This document shows positions 2,014 through 22,725 of a stretch of DNA of 22,725 bases, piece by piece; position 1 is the stretch's first letter, and each line of letters starts with the position of its first letter. The notes beneath the pieces were generated by a model. That model was not told where the DNA came from and ran no database searches. It saw only the letters and a program-made list of their open reading frames with translations. Both the position numbers and the translations under genes were made by a program. Source of the DNA: a virus; IMG/VR virus record IMGVR_UViG_3300009684_000183, positions 1-22,725 of that record. One strand, given 5' to 3'.

Positions 2014-2841
2014 ATGCTATTTCCTTTTAGTTTTATTCAATCTACACAAATTCAACCTTTGTTGGACTTATATCCAAGTGCAACAGTAGCATATTCATTG
2101 CGTAAATTAAGAACTGCATATAGTGGTAATGCAATTCGGGTAAGACGTACAGATTTAACCGAACAAAATATTGGATTTACCGCAGCTGGGGACTTAGACA
2201 CTGCTGCATTGCTTTCGTTTGTTGGCACGGGTGCAACAGATAATGGATTTATTGTAACATGGTATGACCAAAGTGGTAACGCAAATAATGCAACACAATC
2301 AAATGCTATTTATCAACCGCAAATAGTAAGTGCGGGAAGTATATTATTATTAAATAGTAAACCATCTATAAAATTTGATGGTGTAAACGATTATTTGCCC
2401 ATTACTGCAATAACTCCTGCAAGTCAGAACTTTAATACTTTTGTAGGGAAAAGAAGTGCATCTGGAGATATATTGGCTGGATTATTGGGTGCACAGTACG
2501 TACTTCAATTATATTCAAATAACTTTTATGGAATACAAATGGCAATTGGAGCTTCTAGTGGTTATAATCAAAGCACAGCTACAGATACAACGACAGATAG
2601 ACTACTTTTAACTGGATTACGAGAAAGTGGTGTCATGAAAATCTATAAAAACAACAATTTGATTCCTTCAAGTTTTACTACTGCAACTTTAGCAAATTCA
2701 ATTAATTCTATTGGACAATATGTTGCTGTACCTTATTATATAAAATGCAGTTTACAAGAAATTGTCTATTATAATACTGCACAAGAAACTAATCGTATAG
2801 GAATAGAAACTAACATAAATTCATATTATGGCGTTTATTAA
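2014..2841 (+). CDS. Arabinofuranosidase-like / concanavalin-fold virion protein
   Basis: This 275-residue protein starts 1 base after the tail fibre stop. Residues ~20-115 carry a recognisable pattern: VAYSLRKLRTAYSGNAIRVRR, then a DIGFT-like segment (here NIGFTAAGDLDTAAL), then FVGTG and TWYDQSGNANNATQ. This resembles the alpha-L-arabinofuranosidase B catalytic-type domain found in many phage tail proteins. The second half (from about PSIKFDGVNDYL) looks like a LamG/concanavalin-like beta-sandwich of the kind that binds sugars. A role in recognising or trimming host surface glycans is inferred from family and position. It could equally be a non-catalytic lectin. Confidence 0.6.
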   Translation: MLFPFSFIQSTQIQPLLDLYPSATVAYSLRKLRTAYSGNAIRVRRTDLTEQNIGFTAAGDLDTAALLSFVGTGATDNGFIVTWYDQSGNANNATQSNAIYQPQIVSAGSILLLNSKPSIKFDGVNDYLPITAITPASQNFNTFVGKRSASGDILAGLLGAQYVLQLYSNNFYGIQMAIGASSGYNQSTATDTTTDRLLLTGLRESGVMKIYKNNNLIPSSFTTATLANSINSIGQYVAVPYYIKCSLQEIVYYNTAQETNRIGIETNINSYYGVY

Positions 2842-2853
2842 AGGATATAAATA

Positions 2854-3477
2854 ATGGCATACGTTTACAGACATATTAGACTTGATAAAAATGAACCATT
2901 TTATATTGGTATTGGTAGCGATGAACATTATTATAGATCTACTGCTAAAGCTCATAGAAACAAAATATGGAAAGGCATAGTATCACGTACTGAATACAAA
3001 GTTCAAATTATATTTGATAATATTACGTTTGATGAATCCAAAGAAAAAGAAAAAGAATTTATCAGCTTGTATGGAAGAATAAATTTAGGTACTGGTATTT
3101 TATGTAATTTAACAGATGGAGGAGATGGAATAATAGGTCAAGTTTTTACCCAAGAACATAGACAAAAAATATCAGAATCAAACAAAGGAAGAAAGTTATC
3201 TGATGAACATCGTAGAAAACTAAGAGAAAGTGGTAGAGTCTGGGGATTGACAGAAGAACAAAAAAAACATTTAAGTGTAATTCAAAAGGGAATACCTAAA
3301 AATAAAGAAAAAGCTGCAAGAGGACTAACAAGTGGAGTTTCTCGACAAGTTCTTGATTTATATACTGGTATTTTTTATGAAAGCATATTGCAATTATCCC
3401 AATTACATGACATTAATTATCAGACATTATTAAAAAGACTTAGAAGCAAATCAAACAAAAGATACTTAGTAGTATGA
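2854..3477 (+). CDS. Free-standing GIY-YIG homing endonuclease
   Basis: 207 residues. The N-terminus has the GIY-YIG nuclease pattern: V-Y-R at residues 4-6, F-Y-I-G-I-G at 16-21 and an acidic E in K-E-F-I near 68. The segment CNLTDGGDG (84-92) is typical of phage homing endonucleases. Two NUMOD3-like DNA-binding repeats follow (about 97-115 and 115-130, E-H-R-x-K-[IL]-x-E-S), and the C-terminus resembles a NUMOD1 helix-turn-helix. No intron signature surrounds it; it sits between two virion-type genes. Its TGA stop overlaps the next start as ATGA. An AAAGGA stretch 6-11 bases before the ATG is one of the few Shine-Dalgarno-like leaders here. It is probably a selfish gene that cleaves DNA of related phages lacking it. 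Confidence 0.85.
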   Translation: MAYVYRHIRLDKNEPFYIGIGSDEHYYRSTAKAHRNKIWKGIVSRTEYKVQIIFDNITFDESKEKEKEFISLYGRINLGTGILCNLTDGGDGIIGQVFTQEHRQKISESNKGRKLSDEHRRKLRESGRVWGLTEEQKKHLSVIQKGIPKNKEKAARGLTSGVSRQVLDLYTGIFYESILQLSQLHDINYQTLLKRLRSKSNKRYLVV

Positions 3478-3710
3478 TAACTGGATATAAATATACAATC
3501 GAACAAGAAACCATTGCAGCACAAAAGCAATGCGATGCTTTTTATGGCATTCCAAAATCTCCTGAAGATGTAACAACGCATTGGGTTGGTTATAATTTTG
3601 CAGAATTGAATAACCCTCAATTTTATTACATAACATTTGACAAATCACTTTTGCCAATTTTAGGGCAGCCAATTGAATTTGAAATAATACAACCACCATT
3701 TTCATTATAA
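3474..3710 (+). CDS. Small hypothetical protein downstream of tail genes
   Basis: 78 residues, starting at an ATG that overlaps the endonuclease stop (ATGA). The sequence is soluble and aromatic-rich, with no signal peptide or membrane segment. The central part (residues ~34-54: hTHWVGYNFAELNNPQFYYI) suggests a compact folded domain. I do not recognise a family with a known function. The position, between tail fibre-type genes and lysis genes, suggests a minor virion or assembly protein, but that is inference only. Confidence 0.65.
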   Translation: MITGYKYTIEQETIAAQKQCDAFYGIPKSPEDVTTHWVGYNFAELNNPQFYYITFDKSLLPILGQPIEFEIIQPPFSL

Positions 3711-3737
3711 AACAGTTTAAAACATAAAAATATAAAA

Positions 3738-7260: not shown

Positions 7261-7608
7261 ATGGAACTTGCTAAAGAAGATATTTTTAAATCTAAAAGAA
7301 AACCTAAAAGCCCTATTTCTTTTAAACTTACTTTAAACGAAGAACAAAAAGAAGCTAAAAGAGTTATTTTAAATAATCCTATTACTGTTCTTTTAGGTTC
7401 AGCAGGATCAGGAAAGACGCTTACTGCAACTAATGTTGCATTAGATCAATTATTCAACAGAGAAGTAGATAAGATAGTTATTACTAGACCTACAGTAACT
7501 GAAGAAGACTTAGGTTTTCTTCCTGGAGGTATAAGTGAAAAAATGGATCCTTGGCTACAACCTATCTATCAAAACTTCTACGCTCTTTACGGCAAAGAAA
7601 AGATATAA
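7261..7608 (+). CDS. phoH: PhoH-like ATPase, N-terminal part ended by an in-frame TAA
   Basis: 115 residues. It carries Walker A GSAGSGKT (46-53) and the PhoH-typical stretch TRPTV...LGFLPGG (75-90), followed by EKMDPW. The frame stops at TAA 7606-7608, but the same frame continues without interruption to 7941 and supplies Walker B and the rest of the PhoH domain. Reading through codon 116 would give a normal 226-residue PhoH-like protein. The residue expected there in the K-E-K-I-x-K-E-I-A-E-G context is Glu, so a single GAA-to-TAA change explains the break. It is either a real nonsense mutation, an assembly error or, less likely, readthrough. PhoH-like proteins are P-loop NTPases common in phages, possibly RNA-directed. 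Confidence 0.75.
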   Translation: MELAKEDIFKSKRKPKSPISFKLTLNEEQKEAKRVILNNPITVLLGSAGSGKTLTATNVALDQLFNREVDKIVITRPTVTEEDLGFLPGGISEKMDPWLQPIYQNFYALYGKEKI

Positions 7609-7644
7609 AAAGAAATAGCTGAAGGTAACATTGAGATTCTTCCT

Positions 7645-7941
7645 ATGAGTTATATAAGAGGTATTACTTTTGTTAATACTTTTGTTATAGCAGATGAAGT
7701 CCAAAACTTAACTCATACTCAAATGGAAGCTTTATTAGGTCGCCTAGGACAAAATTCTAAAATGGTACTTTGCGGAGACGTAAGTCAAATAGATTTACGC
7801 AATAAAAAGAATAGTGGTCTTAGTTTCTTACGAAGAGTAGAAGAACAAGTTGAAGGATTTAAGATAATTACTTTAAAACAAAATCATCGGCATTCTATAG
7901 TCCAACCTATACTGGATGTCTATAAGGTGTACGCAGATTAA
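7645..7941 (+). CDS. phoH: PhoH-like ATPase, C-terminal part after the in-frame stop
   Basis: This is the same reading frame as the preceding PhoH segment. The first in-frame ATG after the stop is at 7645, and the coding signal already resumes at 7609 (KEIAEGNIEILP). It holds Walker B FVIADEVQN (residues 13-21) and the downstream PhoH signature GRLGQNSKMVLCGDVSQIDL. If translated alone it would lack the nucleotide-binding P-loop, so it should not be a functional ATPase without the N-terminal part. No leader typical of the other genes precedes the 7645 ATG, so independent initiation is not well supported. The frame ends 9 bases before a bidirectional terminator stem. Confidence 0.7.
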   Translation: MSYIRGITFVNTFVIADEVQNLTHTQMEALLGRLGQNSKMVLCGDVSQIDLRNKKNSGLSFLRRVEEQVEGFKIITLKQNHRHSIVQPILDVYKVYAD

Positions 7942-9891: not shown

Positions 9892-9914
9892 TTAAAATAT
9901 TTATTCTATCTTTG
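9884..9914 (+). promoter_or_regulatory. Bacteroidota-type promoter for the lone plus-strand gene
   Basis: TTG at 9884-9886, a 20-base spacer, then TATCTTTG at 9907-9914, matching the TTG / TAnnTTTG sigma-A consensus of Bacteroidota. Transcription would start near 9920, about 14 bases before the ATG at 9934. The -33 element lies inside the deaminase start codon region. Confidence 0.75.
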
Positions 9915-15889: not shown

Positions 15890-16545
15890 ACTTTAATTAA
15901 TTTTTGAATAACTCTACTATAATTGTAATCAGCGTTACTAAGGATAACGAACTTTTCTTCAATAGACATGTTTGGTTGACTTTCAATCTGGCTTAAAGCA
16001 TCCTTATAGATGTCATAAATTTCTTTACGATCTGAATTATTTAATTTTAAACTAACTGTAGAAAGTTTTAATAATACTTCTGTCATTCCTTCATTCCAGA
16101 TTCGATTTAGAGATTTTCCTAAATTCCATACATGATGAGGAGTGTAAAGATTACAAGTAGGACAACCTGGTAGTAAATTTCTTAAATCCACTCTTGTCAT
16201 TGACTTTGTTCTGCTTATAAAATGGCAACATTGCAGTTGTTTTTTATCCATTTTAACTTCACATGCATAGCATTTTTCTTCATAAGCAGCTCTAATTAAC
16301 CAAGAAGTCATTTGGTCTAACCTAGATTGAGTGATTGTGTTTTTAATTTTTTCTCTCTTTTTAGCTTTTCTTTCTTTTAGTGCTTCTAACTTTATCTTTT
16401 TGGTACAGACAGCACATATTTTCTTAGTTTTATTGGCTAAAGGTCGAACTTTACTACAAACAGAACAAGGAATTGATTCTTTGACCTTCTCAGTAGGCTC
16501 TCCTTTGATAGGAGTTTTTTTTGGGGTTACGTTTCTACGTATCAT
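15886..16545 (-). CDS. ninG: NinG-like recombination protein
   Basis: 219 residues. Two cysteine clusters form zinc-binding sites: C27/C30 with C44/C47, and C92/C95 with C107-H108 and C128/C131 (A-C-E, C-C-H-F, G-C-P-T-C-N). A basic linker (KERKAKKREKIKNT) joins them. The order and spacing match lambda NinG (Rap), a structure-selective endonuclease that cuts recombination intermediates. It is the first gene after a terminator; the leader before the ATG has a TAAATTTG box (16559-16552) but no TTG at the proper distance, so promoter status is uncertain. It overlaps the polymerase start. Confidence 0.75.
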   Translation of the reverse strand: MIRRNVTPKKTPIKGEPTEKVKESIPCSVCSKVRPLANKTKKICAVCTKKIKLEALKERKAKKREKIKNTITQSRLDQMTSWLIRAAYEEKCYACEVKMDKKQLQCCHFISRTKSMTRVDLRNLLPGCPTCNLYTPHHVWNLGKSLNRIWNEGMTEVLLKLSTVSLKLNNSDRKEIYDIYKDALSQIESQPNMSIEEKFVILSNADYNYSRVIQKLIKV

Positions 16546-16562
16546 AGTTTACAAATTTAAAT

Positions 16563-16584
16563 AAAAGGGAGGAATAAACCTCCC
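16563..16584 (-). terminator. Intrinsic terminator between the coiled-coil gene and NinG
   Basis: On the minus strand, GGGAGG (16584-16579), a 6-base loop, CCTCCC (16572-16567) and TTTTATTT. It would partly end transcription from the upstream primase/UNG genes and lies about 20 bases before the NinG start. Confidence 0.75.
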
Positions 16585-16597
16585 TCAATTAATTTTT

Positions 16598-16813
16598 TTA
16601 TTGTGAATCGTCTTTTTCGATTTTTCGTTTGCTTTCTTCTTTTAAGAAGTCACTAAACGCTTCAATCTCTGCAAGTCTGCCTTTTATTTCACAGTAATCA
16701 AACTCTGTCTCTTTAGGCTCTTGTCTTAAACGAGTTATTCTTGATTGTAAATATTCAATCATTTTACTCTTTAAGTCATAGTATCCTAGTTTTTCATATT
16801 CTAAGTATGTCAT
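16598..16813 (-). CDS. Small coiled-coil protein
   Basis: 71 residues, highly charged: basic first half (YLQSRITRLRQEPKE) and acidic second half ending EESKRKIEKDDSQ. Heptad-like spacing over residues ~15-65 suggests a coiled coil. Its ATG overlaps the UNG stop by 4 bases. No family recognised. Confidence 0.6.
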   Translation of the reverse strand: MTYLEYEKLGYYDLKSKMIEYLQSRITRLRQEPKETEFDYCEIKGRLAEIEAFSDFLKEESKRKIEKDDSQ

Positions 16814-17544
16814 TGGTCTATTTTAAAATCTTTTAAGTGATCTACTGTATGAGGTAATTCTAACCAATCTATAGTCTCTCCGTTATAAAGTTGAAGTATG
16901 CGATTAATCTCATTGAAATGATCGCATTCCCAAATTCCTCCTGTATAAGTAGCAGAAGCAGGATGACTACATTCTAAAATATACTGGCTTTCAGGATTAA
17001 GATACTTTTTATACTTTTGAGCATCTTTACCCCACAAAACAAATATATGTCCAGGAAGCTCGTTTAAAGCCTCTAAAACAGCCTTAGTAAAGAAGTCCCA
17101 CTGTTTTAAGTGTGAACCTGCTTTGCCTTTCTCGACTGTTAGAGCACTGTTTAACATTAGAACACCTTGCTTAGTCCAATTCTCTATGTTAAGATCTGTA
17201 GGAAATGCTAAATCATCAGGATAGCAAGTCTCTTTAATCTTTTGATAAATAATCCTAAGAGAAGGAGGAACAAAATCTCTGTTTTTTGGAGCAAATGAAA
17301 GTCCGCATGCAACAGGTTCTCCTTTATATTCAGTAAAGTAAGGATCCATCGAAACAATAGTTACACGAGTCTTCATATAAGGAGTAAGTTGAAATGCTCT
17401 AAAAATCTCTTCTCTTAAAGGAAAGATTTGTTTAGTCTTTCTTTCTTCTGCTATAAACTTAGCAAGTTCCATAAACTCAGGAGACTCAATGGTTGGTTGT
17501 AGTCTTACATACCAATCATCAGGAATGTTAATTAATTTTGTCAT
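16810..17544 (-). CDS. ung: Uracil-DNA glycosylase with divergent active-site motifs
   Basis: 244 residues. The water-activating motif, usually GQDPYH, reads SMDPYF (65-70) and keeps the catalytic D67 but has M for Q and F for H. The N-binding motif LLLN reads L-M-L-N (N132) and the HPSPLS motif reads H-P-A-S-A-T-Y (H194 kept). The GLSFAP (81-86) and VLWG (169-172) signatures are typical of family 1 UNG. So the fold and the Asp/His pair are preserved, while uracil-contact residues differ. Uracil removal, or a changed base preference, is plausible. It is translationally coupled to its neighbours through overlaps on both sides. Confidence 0.75.
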   Translation of the reverse strand: MTKLINIPDDWYVRLQPTIESPEFMELAKFIAEERKTKQIFPLREEIFRAFQLTPYMKTRVTIVSMDPYFTEYKGEPVACGLSFAPKNRDFVPPSLRIIYQKIKETCYPDDLAFPTDLNIENWTKQGVLMLNSALTVEKGKAGSHLKQWDFFTKAVLEALNELPGHIFVLWGKDAQKYKKYLNPESQYILECSHPASATYTGGIWECDHFNEINRILQLYNGETIDWLELPHTVDHLKDFKIDQ

Positions 17545-18230
17545 ATTTCTTGTATTATCTCTAAGCCATCAACAAAACCTCTACCTACTCTAAGTCTACC
17601 TCTTGTTAAAGTTATGTTTTCAAAGTTAACAAGTTTAGTCTTAATGAATTCTTGAGTAGCATATTTTTTAATGCCTATCTGAGTATCAATATCTCCAAAT
17701 ATATCAGGATAAGTTTCTTTAAGAGCATCTAAAATACTAATAAAGTTAGCTAAATACGTCCTATCTGTTTCTACTAAATCTGAATGCTTTTTTAAGCAGT
17801 TAATAACCGTACTGTGATCTCTTCCAAACAACTCTCCACAATGAGTAGTCGTGTAGTTTAAATAAAGGACCATAATAGCATTAATTTGATTACGACAATC
17901 TACAGGTATCCTTTTTCTAGAACGACACAAAGCTTCGTTTAAAGTAAGTCTATTTACTTCAGCTGCCTTAGTTATTATAGAGAGTTCCACATCTGTAAAT
18001 GTAGAAAGCTCAGGTACAAACTCTTTCTTTGCCTCTAATGTGCTTTGAATCTTTTCTACAGTTTTTGATCTTATTGTTTTTAAACGTTTTACGTTATGGT
18101 AATTTTGTACTTTCTTTTTAAAGATATGTTCTCCATTTCTCACAAATGCTTCCAATTGCAAAGAAGACAATCCTTGGCTCTTTCCTATTTTTTCTAATCC
18201 TTCTAGGATAAGATCTCTAACTGTTTGCAT
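17541..18230 (-). CDS. Protein with DnaA domain IV-like DNA-binding region
   Basis: 229 residues. Residues ~80-155 match the C-terminal (domain IV) helix-turn-helix of the DnaA initiator: a first helix IITKAAEVNRLTLNEAL, then S-R-K-R...N-Q-I-N-A-I-M-V-L-Y-L (104-124) and the signature G-R-D-H-S-T-V (136-142), which contacts the DnaA box in DnaA. There is no AAA+ ATPase domain. The N-terminus (1-70) is basic and helical. It may bind a phage origin and recruit the primase or DnaB encoded beside it; that role is inferred. It overlaps the primase by 28 bases. Confidence 0.75.
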   Translation of the reverse strand: MQTVRDLILEGLEKIGKSQGLSSLQLEAFVRNGEHIFKKKVQNYHNVKRLKTIRSKTVEKIQSTLEAKKEFVPELSTFTDVELSIITKAAEVNRLTLNEALCRSRKRIPVDCRNQINAIMVLYLNYTTTHCGELFGRDHSTVINCLKKHSDLVETDRTYLANFISILDALKETYPDIFGDIDTQIGIKKYATQEFIKTKLVNFENITLTRGRLRVGRGFVDGLEIIQEI

Positions 18231-19186
18231 ATTTCTATTAATTTTTCTTTTCCGTAATTTTTATAAATGTCACTAGGGTCTTTACCCCACCTTTCTTCGT
18301 GAAATAAGCAAGGTATTTTATACTTATCCATTATTTTTGTACACCCTATTTTACCTGCTTCATCTGCGTCAAACCAAAGATATAGTTTATTGAATCTTGA
18401 TTGTAGAATCTCGTAGGCATTTTCTGATAAAGGTGTATTTTCGCTTCTTACAGCAACTGCATTAATCCCCAAAGAGGATAAGGTCATTACATCTTTTAAA
18501 CCTTTTGTAATAACAAGAATCTCTCCTTTGTGAGGAAGTTGAGTATAACCCTCTAGAATACCTCCAAAATAAGAAGATCTGAATTTATTTTTTTTATCAG
18601 CAAACGGCCTATAAAGTTTGAACTTGTCTTTTTCCTTGTAGCGATAACAAGGGTCAAATTCATTATTTAAATACCATATTTCATCTGCTATCCATGCTTT
18701 GTCTACTTTTCTAATATCATAGAATTTAAGCATAGATTCTGAGATTCCAAAATTACCCCAATAAGCCAAGTCTTTTTTGTTAAACTTAGTCAGTTTAAGT
18801 TTGATATTAGCGGGTTTAATTTCTGGTACTACACTCAGTTTAGTTTCCATTTTAAGTCTTTCTTTGTCTTCTAGATTCAAAGAGGTTAGTTGGAAGTCCG
18901 ACTCTATCTTATAAAGAATATCAGGATACTGGTAGCCAGTTCGCATACAAGCAACATCTATAGGGGTGTAATACACCTTTTCAGTTGCATAGTCTACAAA
19001 ATATAAATTACCTGATTGAGACCATCGAAAGATACAACTTGCATTAGTATCTTTTCTGAAAGGATTTACATACTTTTTACCTAAGCGAATTTCATCGTTA
19101 AAATAAAAAGACATAACTCTTTCTTGTCCCAATAAGGAATAGATAGATTGTACACTTGGTCTGATTTCTAAAGATTCTAGATTCAT
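18203..19186 (-). CDS. DnaG-like primase with TOPRIM domain
   Basis: 327 residues. The N-terminal part follows the primase zinc-domain-like pattern (N-P-F-R-K-D-T-N-A-S-C-I-F and then D-Y-A-T, 41-68) but lacks the zinc cysteines. The TOPRIM domain has I-T-K-G-L-K-D (226-232), F-D-A-D-E-A-G (272-278) and K-D-P-S-D (302-306). The usual catalytic Glu of motif I is replaced (ITKG), a form seen in several phage primases. It primes lagging-strand synthesis with the DnaB helicase. The ATG directly abuts a terminator-like T-run. Confidence 0.8.
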   Translation of the reverse strand: MNLESLEIRPSVQSIYSLLGQERVMSFYFNDEIRLGKKYVNPFRKDTNASCIFRWSQSGNLYFVDYATEKVYYTPIDVACMRTGYQYPDILYKIESDFQLTSLNLEDKERLKMETKLSVVPEIKPANIKLKLTKFNKKDLAYWGNFGISESMLKFYDIRKVDKAWIADEIWYLNNEFDPCYRYKEKDKFKLYRPFADKKNKFRSSYFGGILEGYTQLPHKGEILVITKGLKDVMTLSSLGINAVAVRSENTPLSENAYEILQSRFNKLYLWFDADEAGKIGCTKIMDKYKIPCLFHEERWGKDPSDIYKNYGKEKLIEICKQLEILS

Positions 19187-19212
19187 AAAAAAGGGGAGTT
19201 TTTACACTCCCC
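19187..19212 (-). terminator. Terminator or attenuator directly upstream of the primase ATG
   Basis: On the minus strand, GGGGAGT (19212-19206), a 6-base loop, ACTCCCC (19199-19193), then TTTTTT (19192-19187) and at once the ATG of the primase at 19186. It would stop transcription coming from the SSB-like gene, or modulate primase expression by hairpin formation at the start codon. Confidence 0.75.
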
Positions 19213-19219
19213 AATTAAA

Positions 19220-20065
19220 TTAGAACAATGAAATAGGTGCTGAATCCGCAAAAGGATTAGCTATCTCTGTAGGAGTATCTCCAAACATCATAATAGGAGC
19301 ATTAGCGTCTACTTCGTTTGTAGCAGGTGCTAATTCCGCATTATACTCATTGAAGGTAAATGAACCATTATAGAATGATTTAAAACCATATTGACCCATA
19401 ACATTCTTAGTTACGTAGTCAGTTACTTTACCATATACATTAAGGAAAATTCCTGTATAAACGTCTTGGTATTTACCGTCTTTGATACCCATAAGAACTT
19501 TAACACCACCGTCTTTTTCATTAAAATGGTTAAAGAAATTAACTAGTTCACTTCCATTACCTTTAGTTAAGGTAGCCCAAGAAGTCAACACCAACGGATT
19601 GCTTTTAGGAGAAATGTTACCATAAGCTTTCAAAAGAGAATAAATAGTCTCTTCTCCTCCTTTAGCTTCACGAATACTCTTCATGTCAATTTTTCTTTCA
19701 GGTTGTAATCCTGCTTGTGCTTCACTTAATAAAGATAAGTTCTCAGCCCATGCAGTTTTAGTAAAATCATCAATCCACTGTTTCTTACCTGCATTAGACA
19801 TACGAGTATTGTTGTCTACCCAAATAGAAAACTTACCTTTCAATTCTGTCTTAAAAGAAGGGTGGTTAACATACCAAAAATCTAAACGAGTGTTTTTCTC
19901 GGTTACATAGTTAGGTTCTTTTACTTTCTCAATGTCCACACCTAAGATACTTGCTAAAGTCTTAGTGTCTGGGTTAACTGAAATAATTTGAACAGGAGCA
20001 AATCCTGTGTACATTTTACGAGATGATGCACTCGCTTCTCTGGTTTCTAAGTTGTCGAAATTCAT
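19220..20065 (-). CDS. Probable single-stranded DNA-binding protein
   Basis: 281 residues. The core resembles phage ssDNA-binding proteins of the type seen next to Sak4-like genes: W-Y-V-N-H-P (about 68-73), then a beta strand F-S-I-W-V-D, then Q-W-I-D-D-F-T-K-T-A-W (about 101-111), similar to the 'tG..q.iD..G.TAW' pattern. The C-terminus is acidic and ends DSAPISLF, an acidic-aromatic tail like that used by SSBs to contact partners. I cannot confirm the fold, and the family name is not certain. Placed just downstream of the Sak4-like gene and upstream of the primase. Confidence 0.5.
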   Translation of the reverse strand: MNFDNLETREASASSRKMYTGFAPVQIISVNPDTKTLASILGVDIEKVKEPNYVTEKNTRLDFWYVNHPSFKTELKGKFSIWVDNNTRMSNAGKKQWIDDFTKTAWAENLSLLSEAQAGLQPERKIDMKSIREAKGGEETIYSLLKAYGNISPKSNPLVLTSWATLTKGNGSELVNFFNHFNEKDGGVKVLMGIKDGKYQDVYTGIFLNVYGKVTDYVTKNVMGQYGFKSFYNGSFTFNEYNAELAPATNEVDANAPIMMFGDTPTEIANPFADSAPISLF

Positions 20066-20084
20066 AATTTATTTTTTGTTTTTT

Positions 20085-20342
20085 TTATTTTGATTTTTTA
20101 CTTGTTGTTGTTGGTACTACTACCTCTTCTGCATAATATGCATCGATGATTTCGCATACTGCATTTAAGTCATTTGGAATAAGGGTGTCATCAAACATTC
20201 CCATAGGAGATTTAGCAGGATACATACGAAAACGGTTAGTTACAAAATTGTAAGTAGGATTACCATCTTTGTCTTCGTCTACATGAGTATAAAGACAGAT
20301 AGTAAACAAACCTTCAAGAACAATTTGGTTGTCGAGCATTTT
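20085..20342 (-). CDS. Sak4-like ATPase, 3' exon
   Basis: The exon starts at AAA 20342 and ends at TAA 20085-20087. It encodes KMLDNQIVLEGLFTICLYTH, then YNFVTNRFRMYPAKSPMGMFDD, then a short tail (EVVVPTTTSKKSK). This is the C-terminal part of the recombination ATPase encoded by the 5' exon at 21312-21767. A 69-codon-plus frame from the ATG at 20345 exists only because the last intron bases (ATG before AAA) form a start codon. On joining, T-I-G|K-M-L-D-N-Q is restored, which is the conserved motif in this family. The complete spliced protein is 237 residues. Confidence 0.85.
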   Translation of the reverse strand, partial: KMLDNQIVLEGLFTICLYTHVDEDKDGNPTYNFVTNRFRMYPAKSPMGMFDDTLIPNDLNAVCEIIDAYYAEEVVVPTTTSKKSK

Positions 20343-20350
20343 CATTGATA

Positions 20351-20369
20351 CCTTAAGGTTTCCCGAAAG
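20351..20369 (-). repeat. Short repeat flanking the intron endonuclease, downstream copy
   Basis: On the minus strand CTTTCGGGAAACC..., nearly identical to CTTTCGGGGAAACG... at 21120-21101. The two copies flank the endonuclease gene inside the intron (one G missing). Confidence 0.7.
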
Positions 20370-20371
20370 GA

Positions 20372-21058
20372 TTAGACTATATCTTGTAATTCATTTGCAT
20401 TTTTATATTTCCAACCAAAGCCTCCAGCTGTCTTTCCTCTTCCAACACAACAATTTTGGATAGCTCCTCTATGTGTGTTGTTTGCTAAAGCAACATGTTG
20501 TAAAGAAAGATACTCTTCTATAAAATCTCCTTGTTTAGAGAATTTTAAGACAGGTTTATATCTTTTTGCTTTGGTTTCTTGAGATTGTTTTTTACCGAGG
20601 TTAATTTGTCGAAGTTTCTCTTTTGTAATTTCCGACAATTTTATACCAATTCTTGATTCGCTCATTTTCTTCTTAGAAACACTTGTATGTTTAAATCCTG
20701 CCATTTTTTCACGCATTTTTTGTTTGCGTTCTTTACTATAGATTTGATTTTTATTTCCATCTCCTCCATCAGTCATGTTAAGCAGTTTATAATTCCAAGC
20801 TTTAAATTGTGCAATCCAGTATTGTTCAGTAATTTCCCAAATAGTTTCATCTATTTCTTCAATAGCCTCAATAATAGGAATTAAATCATTTTTATATAAT
20901 TGTTTTATCCAATTACACTTGTGACTTGTTTCTCTATCTCGTATAGCACTCATGATATGGCCATCAAGCCTTCTTTGTAAAGTTTGTACAGTTTTTCCAA
21001 TGTACCTTATCTCTAAAGTAGTTGGGTCTGATAACGTATAAATTTTTACTTTTCTCAT
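20372..21058 (-). CDS. Intron-encoded GIY-YIG homing endonuclease
   Basis: 228 residues. GIY-YIG core: K-I-Y (5-7), R-Y-I-G-K-T (18-23), R-R (29-30) and E79 in E-Q-Y-W-I. The segment N-M-T-D-G-G-D-G-N is typical of the phage families. NUMOD3-like repeats follow (about 107-160). The last ~45 residues (K-P-V-L-K-F-S...G-G-F-G-W-K-Y) match a NUMOD1 domain, which recognises DNA. It lies wholly in the intron and should cut an intronless Sak4-like gene near the splice junction, driving intron homing. It has a promoter of its own (21063-21093), only 4 bases before the ATG, so the transcript is probably nearly leaderless. Confidence 0.9.
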   Translation of the reverse strand: MRKVKIYTLSDPTTLEIRYIGKTVQTLQRRLDGHIMSAIRDRETSHKCNWIKQLYKNDLIPIIEAIEEIDETIWEITEQYWIAQFKAWNYKLLNMTDGGDGNKNQIYSKERKQKMREKMAGFKHTSVSKKKMSESRIGIKLSEITKEKLRQINLGKKQSQETKAKRYKPVLKFSKQGDFIEEYLSLQHVALANNTHRGAIQNCCVGRGKTAGGFGWKYKNANELQDIV

Positions 21059-21062
21059 GATT

Positions 21063-21093
21063 CAAATATACTAAAACTATTGGTAAAATGCAA
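21063..21093 (-). promoter_or_regulatory. Bacteroidota-type promoter inside the intron
   Basis: On the minus strand, TTG (21093-21091), a 20-base spacer, then TATATTTG (21070-21063), matching TTG-N20-TAnnTTTG. The endonuclease ATG begins 4 bases further on, at 21058. It would let the homing endonuclease be made independently of splicing. Confidence 0.75.
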
Positions 21094-21100
21094 GTAATTA

Positions 21101-21120
21101 CCTCACCGTTTCCCCGAAAG
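21101..21120 (-). repeat. Short repeat flanking the intron endonuclease, upstream copy
   Basis: On the minus strand CTTTCGGGGAAACG, partner of the repeat at 20351-20369. It also forms part of a P9-like stem CGAGAGTTT...AAACTTTCG. Confidence 0.7.
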
Positions 21121-21311
21121 TTTTAAACTCTCGAGTACTCCCCTTCACGGGGATAGTCGTTGAACGTTCTTCCCTATTTTCATAGTAGGAAGCTTCGCTG
21201 CTGATTACCCAATCCTAGTCTCTTTCACTTTGCTGAAGTCATTACTGCTTCAGGGAGTGTACTAGGCTCTAAGGGCGTTCCAGTCAATTAGATGAGTACA
21301 GGCAAATGTTC

Positions 21312-21767
21312 ACCTATGGTTTTGATTTTCTGACCTACAATCTTACCTTCGTCTTCAACAGTCTCTGAATGAGATAGATAGAATACTTTTAAGTCAGATC
21401 TTAGTCTACGAGCTGTAGTTAACATAGTTGTTACATCTTGAGCTAATAGAGAAAACTTTGTAAAGCCTGTCTCTGTTGCTTTCTTTACCATACCAAAAGC
21501 CATAGAATAGATAGCATCATCCATTACAATGTTTTTGATTTGTGGAGCACCTGTACTGATTTGTTGTAACAAAGTAGTAATTTGCTTGATGTCGTCTACC
21601 TCGAAATAATTCTTTTTTTCTGCTGTGTAGAGTTTGTCTGCTCCCCTAAATGGAAGTTCTTTACGAGCTACATTAATGATGAATGTTTCATCAGGGTTAA
21701 GCGTCCTAATTGACGTTGATTTACCAGTTCCCGAAGGACCTACGATTGCGATTAATTTACTTGACAT
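21312..21767 (-). CDS. Sak4-like recombination ATPase, 5' exon
   Basis: 152 codons before the splice site. Walker A G-P-S-G-T-G-K-S (10-17), Walker B I-K-N-I-V-M-D-D (77-84), and a later S-H-S-E region (132-135) typical of RecA-like P-loop proteins of phages. The exon ends T-I-G (150-152), directly before the conserved K-M-L-D-N-Q supplied by the 3' exon. Without splicing the frame runs 7 codons into the intron (EHLPVLI) to a TAA, giving a truncated protein. Sak4-type ATPases act with SSB in single-strand annealing and strand exchange, consistent with neighbours. Leader is A-rich (AAAAAAAAAGAAAT). Confidence 0.85.
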
Positions 21768-21778
21768 ATTTCTTTTTT

Positions 21779-22069
21779 TTAATTTGTTTCTTGTTCAATT
21801 GTTAGTTTCCATCCATAATTAAGGGTAAACATTAGTACTTGTCTTTCTCTGAAATACTTAGCTTTAGACAATCCTAAATCTCTATTGATTTCAGGATCTT
21901 TGTTAGTTGTTAGCCAATTTTCAAAGTCGATTTCTTCTTCTCTAGTCCATGTATGTTTGTAAAACCACTTCTCTTCTTTAAAATCTATAGAGTCATAATC
22001 TGCTCCAACTCTAGTACACATTTCTTTTAGGACTTTTATTAATCCTGGTCCATAATTCTCTTTATTCAA
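21779..22069 (-). CDS. Hypothetical protein with likely TTG start
   Basis: 96 residues from TTG 22069, which has an AAGGA leader 6 bases upstream. A TAA lies in frame 18 bases before it, so no earlier start exists; the next ATG would cut the N-terminus by 16 residues. The sequence (KEEKWFYKHTWTREEEIDFENWL...RERQVLMFTLNYGWKL) is a compact alpha-helical pattern common in small phage proteins. It sits between the DnaB helicase and Sak4-like genes, which suggests a replication role, possibly helicase loading, but nothing in the sequence proves it. Confidence 0.65.
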   Translation of the reverse strand: MNKENYGPGLIKVLKEMCTRVGADYDSIDFKEEKWFYKHTWTREEEIDFENWLTTNKDPEINRDLGLSKAKYFRERQVLMFTLNYGWKLTIEQETN

Positions 22070-22082
22070 GCTTGTTCCTTTC

Positions 22083-22725
22083 TTATTTTAGTGCTCTAAA
22101 TCTCTCATAATGATTCCCAGTGAGCATTTCCTGGGGTGTAGGTAGTTCCATAAATTCTCCATTAGCTCCATTAAAATATAGTCCGATACTAGAATTCTCA
22201 AGTCCAAAATCACGGTCTTTGAGAAACTTAAGCGATCTATAAGATTGACTTAATAAAGATATGTCATACCCATTATGAGTTGGTATATCATACCTTGAAG
22301 GATTAAATAATCCTATTACAGTACGATAGTCTTGCTGTACACCCTTATTAAGGTGTAATTCTTCTAGTGAAGGTTCTAATTTTTCTTCAATTAGTCCTCC
22401 CTTAGAAGTAAATGTTTGTTTTTCTGATGTAGGTGTCTGTTGATGTACGATAACGTTGACCATGTTAAATCTCTTAGAAAAGATTTCCAAGACATAGTCT
22501 TTAATCATAAAGTCAAAAGTTTGATAAGAAGTTAATCTAGATTTAGTATCAGGAGATAATTCGTTAGAGAGGAGACTAATATGATCAAGTACAAAGAATA
22601 CCCATCTGTCTTCGTTTTTATACTTGTAGCCTGTAATTATTTTACGACCATCTTCTATATCCTTATAGATGTATTCGCCTATTTCAGGATTCTCAAAGTA
22701 AGCTTTTACAGTCTTAGCAATTCCA
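22083..22725 (-). CDS. dnaB: DnaB-type replicative helicase, C-terminal part, 5' end beyond the window
   Basis: The frame is open from the right edge (first full codon at 22724) to TAA 22083-22085; a Met codon at 22508 is internal, not the start. Visible are a Walker B-like W-V-F-F-V-L-D-H-I-S-L-L, then the F4 helicase segment F-N-M-V-N-V-I-V-H-Q-Q (motif H3-like), then Q-Q-D-Y-R-T-V-I-G-L-F-N-P and Y-R-S-L-K-F-L-K-D-R-D (motif H4 region) and the end G-L-Y-F-N-G-A-N-G-E-F-M-E-L-P. This is the RecA-type half of a hexameric 5'-3' helicase. The P-loop must lie to the right of the window. It unwinds the fork together with the primase encoded downstream. Confidence 0.85.
   Translation of the reverse strand, partial: GIAKTVKAYFENPEIGEYIYKDIEDGRKIITGYKYKNEDRWVFFVLDHISLLSNELSPDTKSRLTSYQTFDFMIKDYVLEIFSKRFNMVNVIVHQQTPTSEKQTFTSKGGLIEEKLEPSLEELHLNKGVQQDYRTVIGLFNPSRYDIPTHNGYDISLLSQSYRSLKFLKDRDFGLENSSIGLYFNGANGEFMELPTPQEMLTGNHYERFRALK

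Follow-up and report, generated by a model that had tools for sequence, protein, structure and literature searches.

We have found that the sak4 gene of an uncultured crAss-like phage very probably carries a mobile IA-type group I intron together with its homing endonuclease. The window, i.e., the whole stretch of 22,725 bases that was analysed (virus record IMGVR_UViG_3300009684_000183), has the interrupted gene on its minus strand. A group I intron in the Sak4 gene had already been proposed in the original prediction, and it is supported here by empty alleles, by relatives with the intron at the same site and by compensatory changes. The prediction had omitted a GIY-YIG homing endonuclease gene within the intron, which makes up about 70% of it. 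The main parts of the locus are the following.

21312..21767, minus strand: exon 1 of the Sak4-like gene, codons 1-152 (phrog_2872 profile positions 3-149, Pfam AAA_24; uninterrupted in the relatives L002 and L003)
20343..21311, minus strand: group I intron, IA type, 969 nt (RF00028, empty alleles, same-site relatives, compensatory changes)
20372..21058, minus strand: GIY-YIG homing endonuclease ORF, 228 aa, in the P8 loop (Pfam GIY-YIG, phrog_314)
20085..20342, minus strand: exon 2 of the Sak4-like gene, codons 153-237 plus the stop (phrog_2872 profile positions 147-213; joined 237-aa frame)

The ORF listing gives two minus-strand ORFs, 21767-21288 and 20345-20085, that match consecutive parts of phrog_2872, a Sak4-like annealing protein (E 3.7e-34 and 2.3e-17 for the two exons). 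Joining 21767-21312 to 20342-20085 produces a single 714-nt frame of 237 amino acids in which, as had been claimed, the motif KTIG/KMLDNQ is restored (the slash marks the junction). Read through unspliced, the frame meets a stop seven codons into the intron (EHLPVLI and stop). The structure predicted for the L002 orthologue (mean pLDDT 86) matches RecA/Rad51 proteins and the solved Sak4 8rc5; judging from this modelled RecA-type fold and from the family profile that extends over both exons, the interrupted gene is that of a Sak4-like RecA-fold annealing protein. The insertion point, between codons 152 and 153, falls between the invariant G152 and the nearly invariant K153, where a helix starts in the L002 model. 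Conserved protein-coding positions of this type are common homing sites (PMC3984707).

The Sak4 genes of L002 and L003 (IMGVR_UViG_3300009164_000782) are 98–99% identical to that of the window in amino acids (93–95% in nucleotides) and have no interruption here, the empty site reading ATTGGA/AAAATG in both. L003 is a sibling phage with an empty site; it tracks the window over 16360-22496 at 92–95% identity except for this intron and an insert of its own. We have scanned IMG/VR with endonuclease and DNA patterns for further copies, and the same intron was found, inserted at the identical base, in L082, L067/L083, L085 (where the contig end cuts it) and L087, all of them contigs of other metagenomes. 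Exon 1 of these intron-bearing relatives is 60–72% identical to that of the window, with pS values of 0.71–0.80, at or near saturation, yet the 5' intron core is 88–97% identical. In all the intron-bearing alleles the intron is preceded by GGT, and therefore the required U.G pair is available. GGT is also present in 20 of 53 distinct uninterrupted alleles; L002 and L003 carry GGA, not GGT. Between the window and L002 the differences increase toward the insertion site, a pattern of possible co-conversion that is suggestive only, because the intervals were chosen afterwards.

Both splice sites could be placed to the base, where the original prediction had put them: exon 1 ends in ATAGGT at 21312, and the 969 bases of the intron start with GAACATTTGCCTGT and finish with a G at 20343. 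The short helices P1 and P10 are the following.

21312..21317, minus strand: exon side of P1, ATAGGT (pairs with 21298-21303; mismatch at -4 in L067 and L087)
21298..21303, minus strand: internal guide of P1, GCCTGT (pairs with the exon-1 end ATAGGT)
21304..21308, minus strand: guide side of P10, CATTT (two compensated pairs in L082)
20337..20341, minus strand: exon-2 side of P10, AAATG (partner of CATTT)

The predicted P1, in which ATAGGT pairs with GCCTGT and leaves a U.G at the 5' splice site, holds across the relatives, since the U.G is present in all five sequences and the terminal intron G in all four complete copies; only position -4 is mismatched (U-U), in L067 and L087. The proposed P10 was borne out as well. 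CATTT (21308-21304) pairs with bases 2-6 of exon 2 (AAATG), base 1 staying unpaired, and in L082, where exon 2 begins AAAGC (AAAAT in the window) and the guide ends GCTT (ATTT in the window), two pairs are changed on both sides and one outer pair fails. These double changes are the most telling of all the compensated pairs, as conservation of a helix between an intron and the exon downstream of it would be expected only where the two meet during splicing.

For the complete intron we have written by hand a model of 78 pairs (P1, P3, P4, P5, P5a, P5b, P6, P6a, P7, P7.1, P7.2, P8, P9 and P10) and counted it over five distinct aligned rows (those of L067 and L083 are identical and were counted once). 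Besides P1 and P10 it comprises these elements.

21291..21296, minus strand: P3, 5' strand, CTCATC (two compensated pairs in P3)
21166..21288, minus strand: domain of P4, P5, P5a, P5b, P6 and P6a (all pairs kept in the five sequences, one compensated, in P6)
21153..21158, minus strand: P7, 5' strand, GACTAT (6 bp, invariant)
21115..21152, minus strand: P7.1 and P7.2 hairpins (one compensated pair each; mark of the IA type)
21102..21107, minus strand: P3, 3' strand, GGTGAG (two compensated pairs in P3)
21085..21101, minus strand: P8, 5' side, in two segments (one compensated pair with respect to L082)
20386..20403, minus strand: P8, 3' side (within the end of the endonuclease ORF)
20375..20380, minus strand: P7, 3' strand, ATAGTC (6 bp, invariant; within the 3' match to RF00028)
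20351..20370, minus strand: P9 hairpin (three compensated pairs)

Over the 78 pairs and five sequences 99.2% of the cells are paired, a figure that is partly built in because the same sequences served both to draw the model and to count its pairs. This applies far less to the double changes: 11 pairs are changed on both sides (two in P3, one each in P6, P7.1, P7.2 and P8, three in P9 and two in P10), with a mean of 6.2 in shuffles, none of the 500 being as high, and at most one in slid versions of the model. P7.1 and P7.2 are located between P7 and P3 and both are kept, which identifies the intron as one of the IA type. The covariance search proposed with the original prediction gave a match to RF00028 that is real but lies under the curated gathering cut-off of 50 bits, a score reached nowhere in the window. 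A second search in local E-value mode found 40.0 bits (E 1.9e-8) over 21003-21381, i.e., the 5' core, with a further 19.1 bits (E 0.035) for the 3' part, 20352-20532; the scores stay below the cut-off probably because the endonuclease ORF (20372-21058) separates the two halves of the core. The longer relatives had no RF00028 match. Between the local match and the hand model, the group I catalytic core (P3, P4, P6, P7 and P8) is present, and the 5' core (263 nt) folds better than its shuffled versions (z -2.79; 2 of 200 as good).

The product of the ORF in the P8 loop scores 28.4 bits against the GIY-YIG domain (PF01541, cut-off 22.6) and matches phrog_314 with E 2.6e-23. Its last codons, GAT ATA GTC TAA, hold the 3' strand of P7, and therefore the endonuclease gene and the ribozyme core overlap. 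A sequence search of the PDB with the endonuclease gave chance matches only, I-TevI not being matched, the endonuclease was not found in species-representative genomes, and its AlphaFold model (mean pLDDT 47) was too poor for use. A second homing-endonuclease-like gene of the window (2854-3477, plus strand; phrog_314, E 1.1e-21) is apparently free-standing. Just upstream of the intronic gene we detected one more conserved arrangement.

21063..21093, minus strand: putative promoter-like element, TTG-N20-TATATTTG (kept in five introns)

TATATTTG ends 4 bases ahead of the endonuclease ATG and the TTG lies 20 bases farther upstream, an arrangement present in 5 of 5 introns (TTTG becoming TTTA in two) that resembles the Bacteroidota promoter consensus. 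Similar elements are located between divergent genes near 9907 and 9927. With 38 occurrences in the window against 33 expected, the -7 motif shows no enrichment on its own, and the element is therefore only a lead; sites resembling sigma-70 promoters were no more frequent than by chance.

Could the intron still splice but no longer home, having been inherited with the gene and lost in the siblings? We regard this as improbable, albeit the most serious of the alternatives. In its favor, the relationships of the intron and those of the exons have the same main split (the window, L082 and L085 on one side, L067 and L087 on the other), and because of this shared split a recent transfer is not proven. 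However, the closest intact siblings are without the intron, and phages that are synonymously saturated with respect to the window have it at the same base. Besides, purifying selection acts on the endonuclease (dN 0.14 and dS 1.23 between the window and L082), and its synonymous divergence is below that of Sak4 in the pairs compared, most clearly between L067 and L087 (pS 0.295 vs. 0.665, the latter over a short exon-2 stretch) and also between the window and L082 (0.605 vs. 0.717). A degenerate intron that does not splice, with Sak4 inactive or produced as two fragments in this phage, is very unlikely. Each of the two ORFs is open, that of exon 2 with an in-frame ATG at 20345, but the core helices are all intact, P7 and P10 included, with the changes there compensated, and the window exons are strongly constrained in comparison with L002 (dN 0.006, dS 0.21). 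Least credible of all are two truly separate genes, for which a third ORF flanked by two open ones might speak, or an interruption of another kind (an intein, a translational bypass or an assembly error). These are rejected because both ORFs match consecutive parts of a single family, the insert frame is not continuous with exon 1 (the stop after seven codons), the group I core has compensated helices and the insert recurs at exactly this base in contigs from other metagenomes.

As a mobile intron, the element would act in the following way, a course of splicing, cutting and homing that we infer from the sequences. The Sak4 transcript would fold into the ribozyme (P1, P3-P9, P7.1 and P7.2), attack by exogenous guanosine would come at the U.G pair, after AUAGGU, and P10 would align exon 2, the exons being joined at codon 152/153 to give the Sak4 of 237 amino acids. 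The endonuclease made from the P8 loop would cut the intron-lacking sak4 of co-infecting phages near the junction, and repair of the cut allele would copy the intron in.

The gene has other insertions in the relatives. In L003, positions 730-1795 have an endonuclease-like ORF of 301 aa within the Walker A codons of sak4, the order being the first 13 codons of sak4, a stop, the ORF and then a complete sak4. This ORF has an I-HmuI NUMOD-like domain and, by eye, a GIY-YIG-like start. The first 21 codons of the complete sak4 differ from those of L002 at 18 of 63 bases, the protein being unchanged, and the following 617 bases have 13 differences. It seems that the endonuclease gene arrived in the Walker A codons along with a re-coded start; this start restores the protein and may no longer be cut. 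The arrangement looks like a homing gene that delivers a gene start resistant to cutting. A search for a second copy of the arrangement found none, leaving it in a single contig. In L042, sak4 has another group I intron (2137-3731; RF00028, 38.8 bits) at a different site, near codon 102, with an ORF that looks HNH-like by eye. Taken together with the window intron, these cases make sak4 seem a repeated target. We would give very little credence to the further idea that splicing sets the supply of Sak4, that Sak4 anneals the ends made by the endonuclease and that this coupling of homing to repair draws different mobile elements to the gene. Group I introns above the Rfam cut-off are also present in a gene upstream in L016 (497-752, 97 bits), L005 (565-845, 84 bits) and L002 (361-609, 72 bits), that of L016 following a LAGLIDADG endonuclease ORF.

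Regarding the phage, its genes follow the order Sak4-primase-UDG-PolA, as they do in crAss001 and cr128_1, and PolA has ca. 37% identity to those of crAss phages. The crAss001 RNA polymerase had a weak match in three of four longer relatives and its capsid protein was matched in only one of six. The phage has a crAss-like replication module, and we call it crAss-like, placement in Crassvirales being withheld because the hallmarks in the longer relatives are weak or mostly absent. By inference, the lineage would infect Bacteroidota. The phoH gene of the window (7261-7941, plus strand) has a lone in-frame TAA at 7606-7608, where five relatives have GAA or GAT; a nonsense mutation or a sequencing error would account for it.

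Introns of this kind are already well known in phages, crAss-like ones included, and the window is a well-resolved further case that leaves the general view of group I introns unchanged. Its use is more practical: the Sak4 gene of these uncultured phages can be read from split exons that ordinary annotation calls as separate ORFs, and the base-resolved intron with its empty-site sibling is ready material for a splicing or homing assay. In crAss-like phages, group I introns with endonucleases are known in the core genes for MCP, PolB, primase and the AAA-domain ATPase ATP_43b (Yutin et al., 2021; PMC7886860), the last of which may belong to one family with the Sak4-like gene described here. Those introns came from gut phages and were found via the endonuclease domains, whereas the window represents environmental relatives of the crAss group and adds base-resolved sites, an empty-site sibling and covariation. 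More generally, phage introns sit in conserved protein genes, and group I introns are also found in recA and nrdE of Bacillus (PMC3984707). The Bacillus recA intron is likewise in the gene of a RecA-type recombination protein, although the gene is another one (RecA, not Sak4) and the hosts are different.

A match in sequence is an unannotated stretch of the Flavobacterium phage FpV4 (KT876724.1, 80046-80194; locus L091, 3001-3149). In FpV4/Fpv3, phages of a Bacteroidota host, 143 nt of the intron core are matched at 76.7% identity, but the locus is another one, upstream of an endodeoxyribonuclease gene, and the core alone matches; a group I intron of a cultured phage has probably escaped annotation here. 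Finally, the td intron of phage T4 with I-TevI is likewise of the IA type, interrupts a phage gene and bears a GIY-YIG endonuclease in one of its peripheral loops, although the ORF is located in the P6a loop in td and in P8 here.
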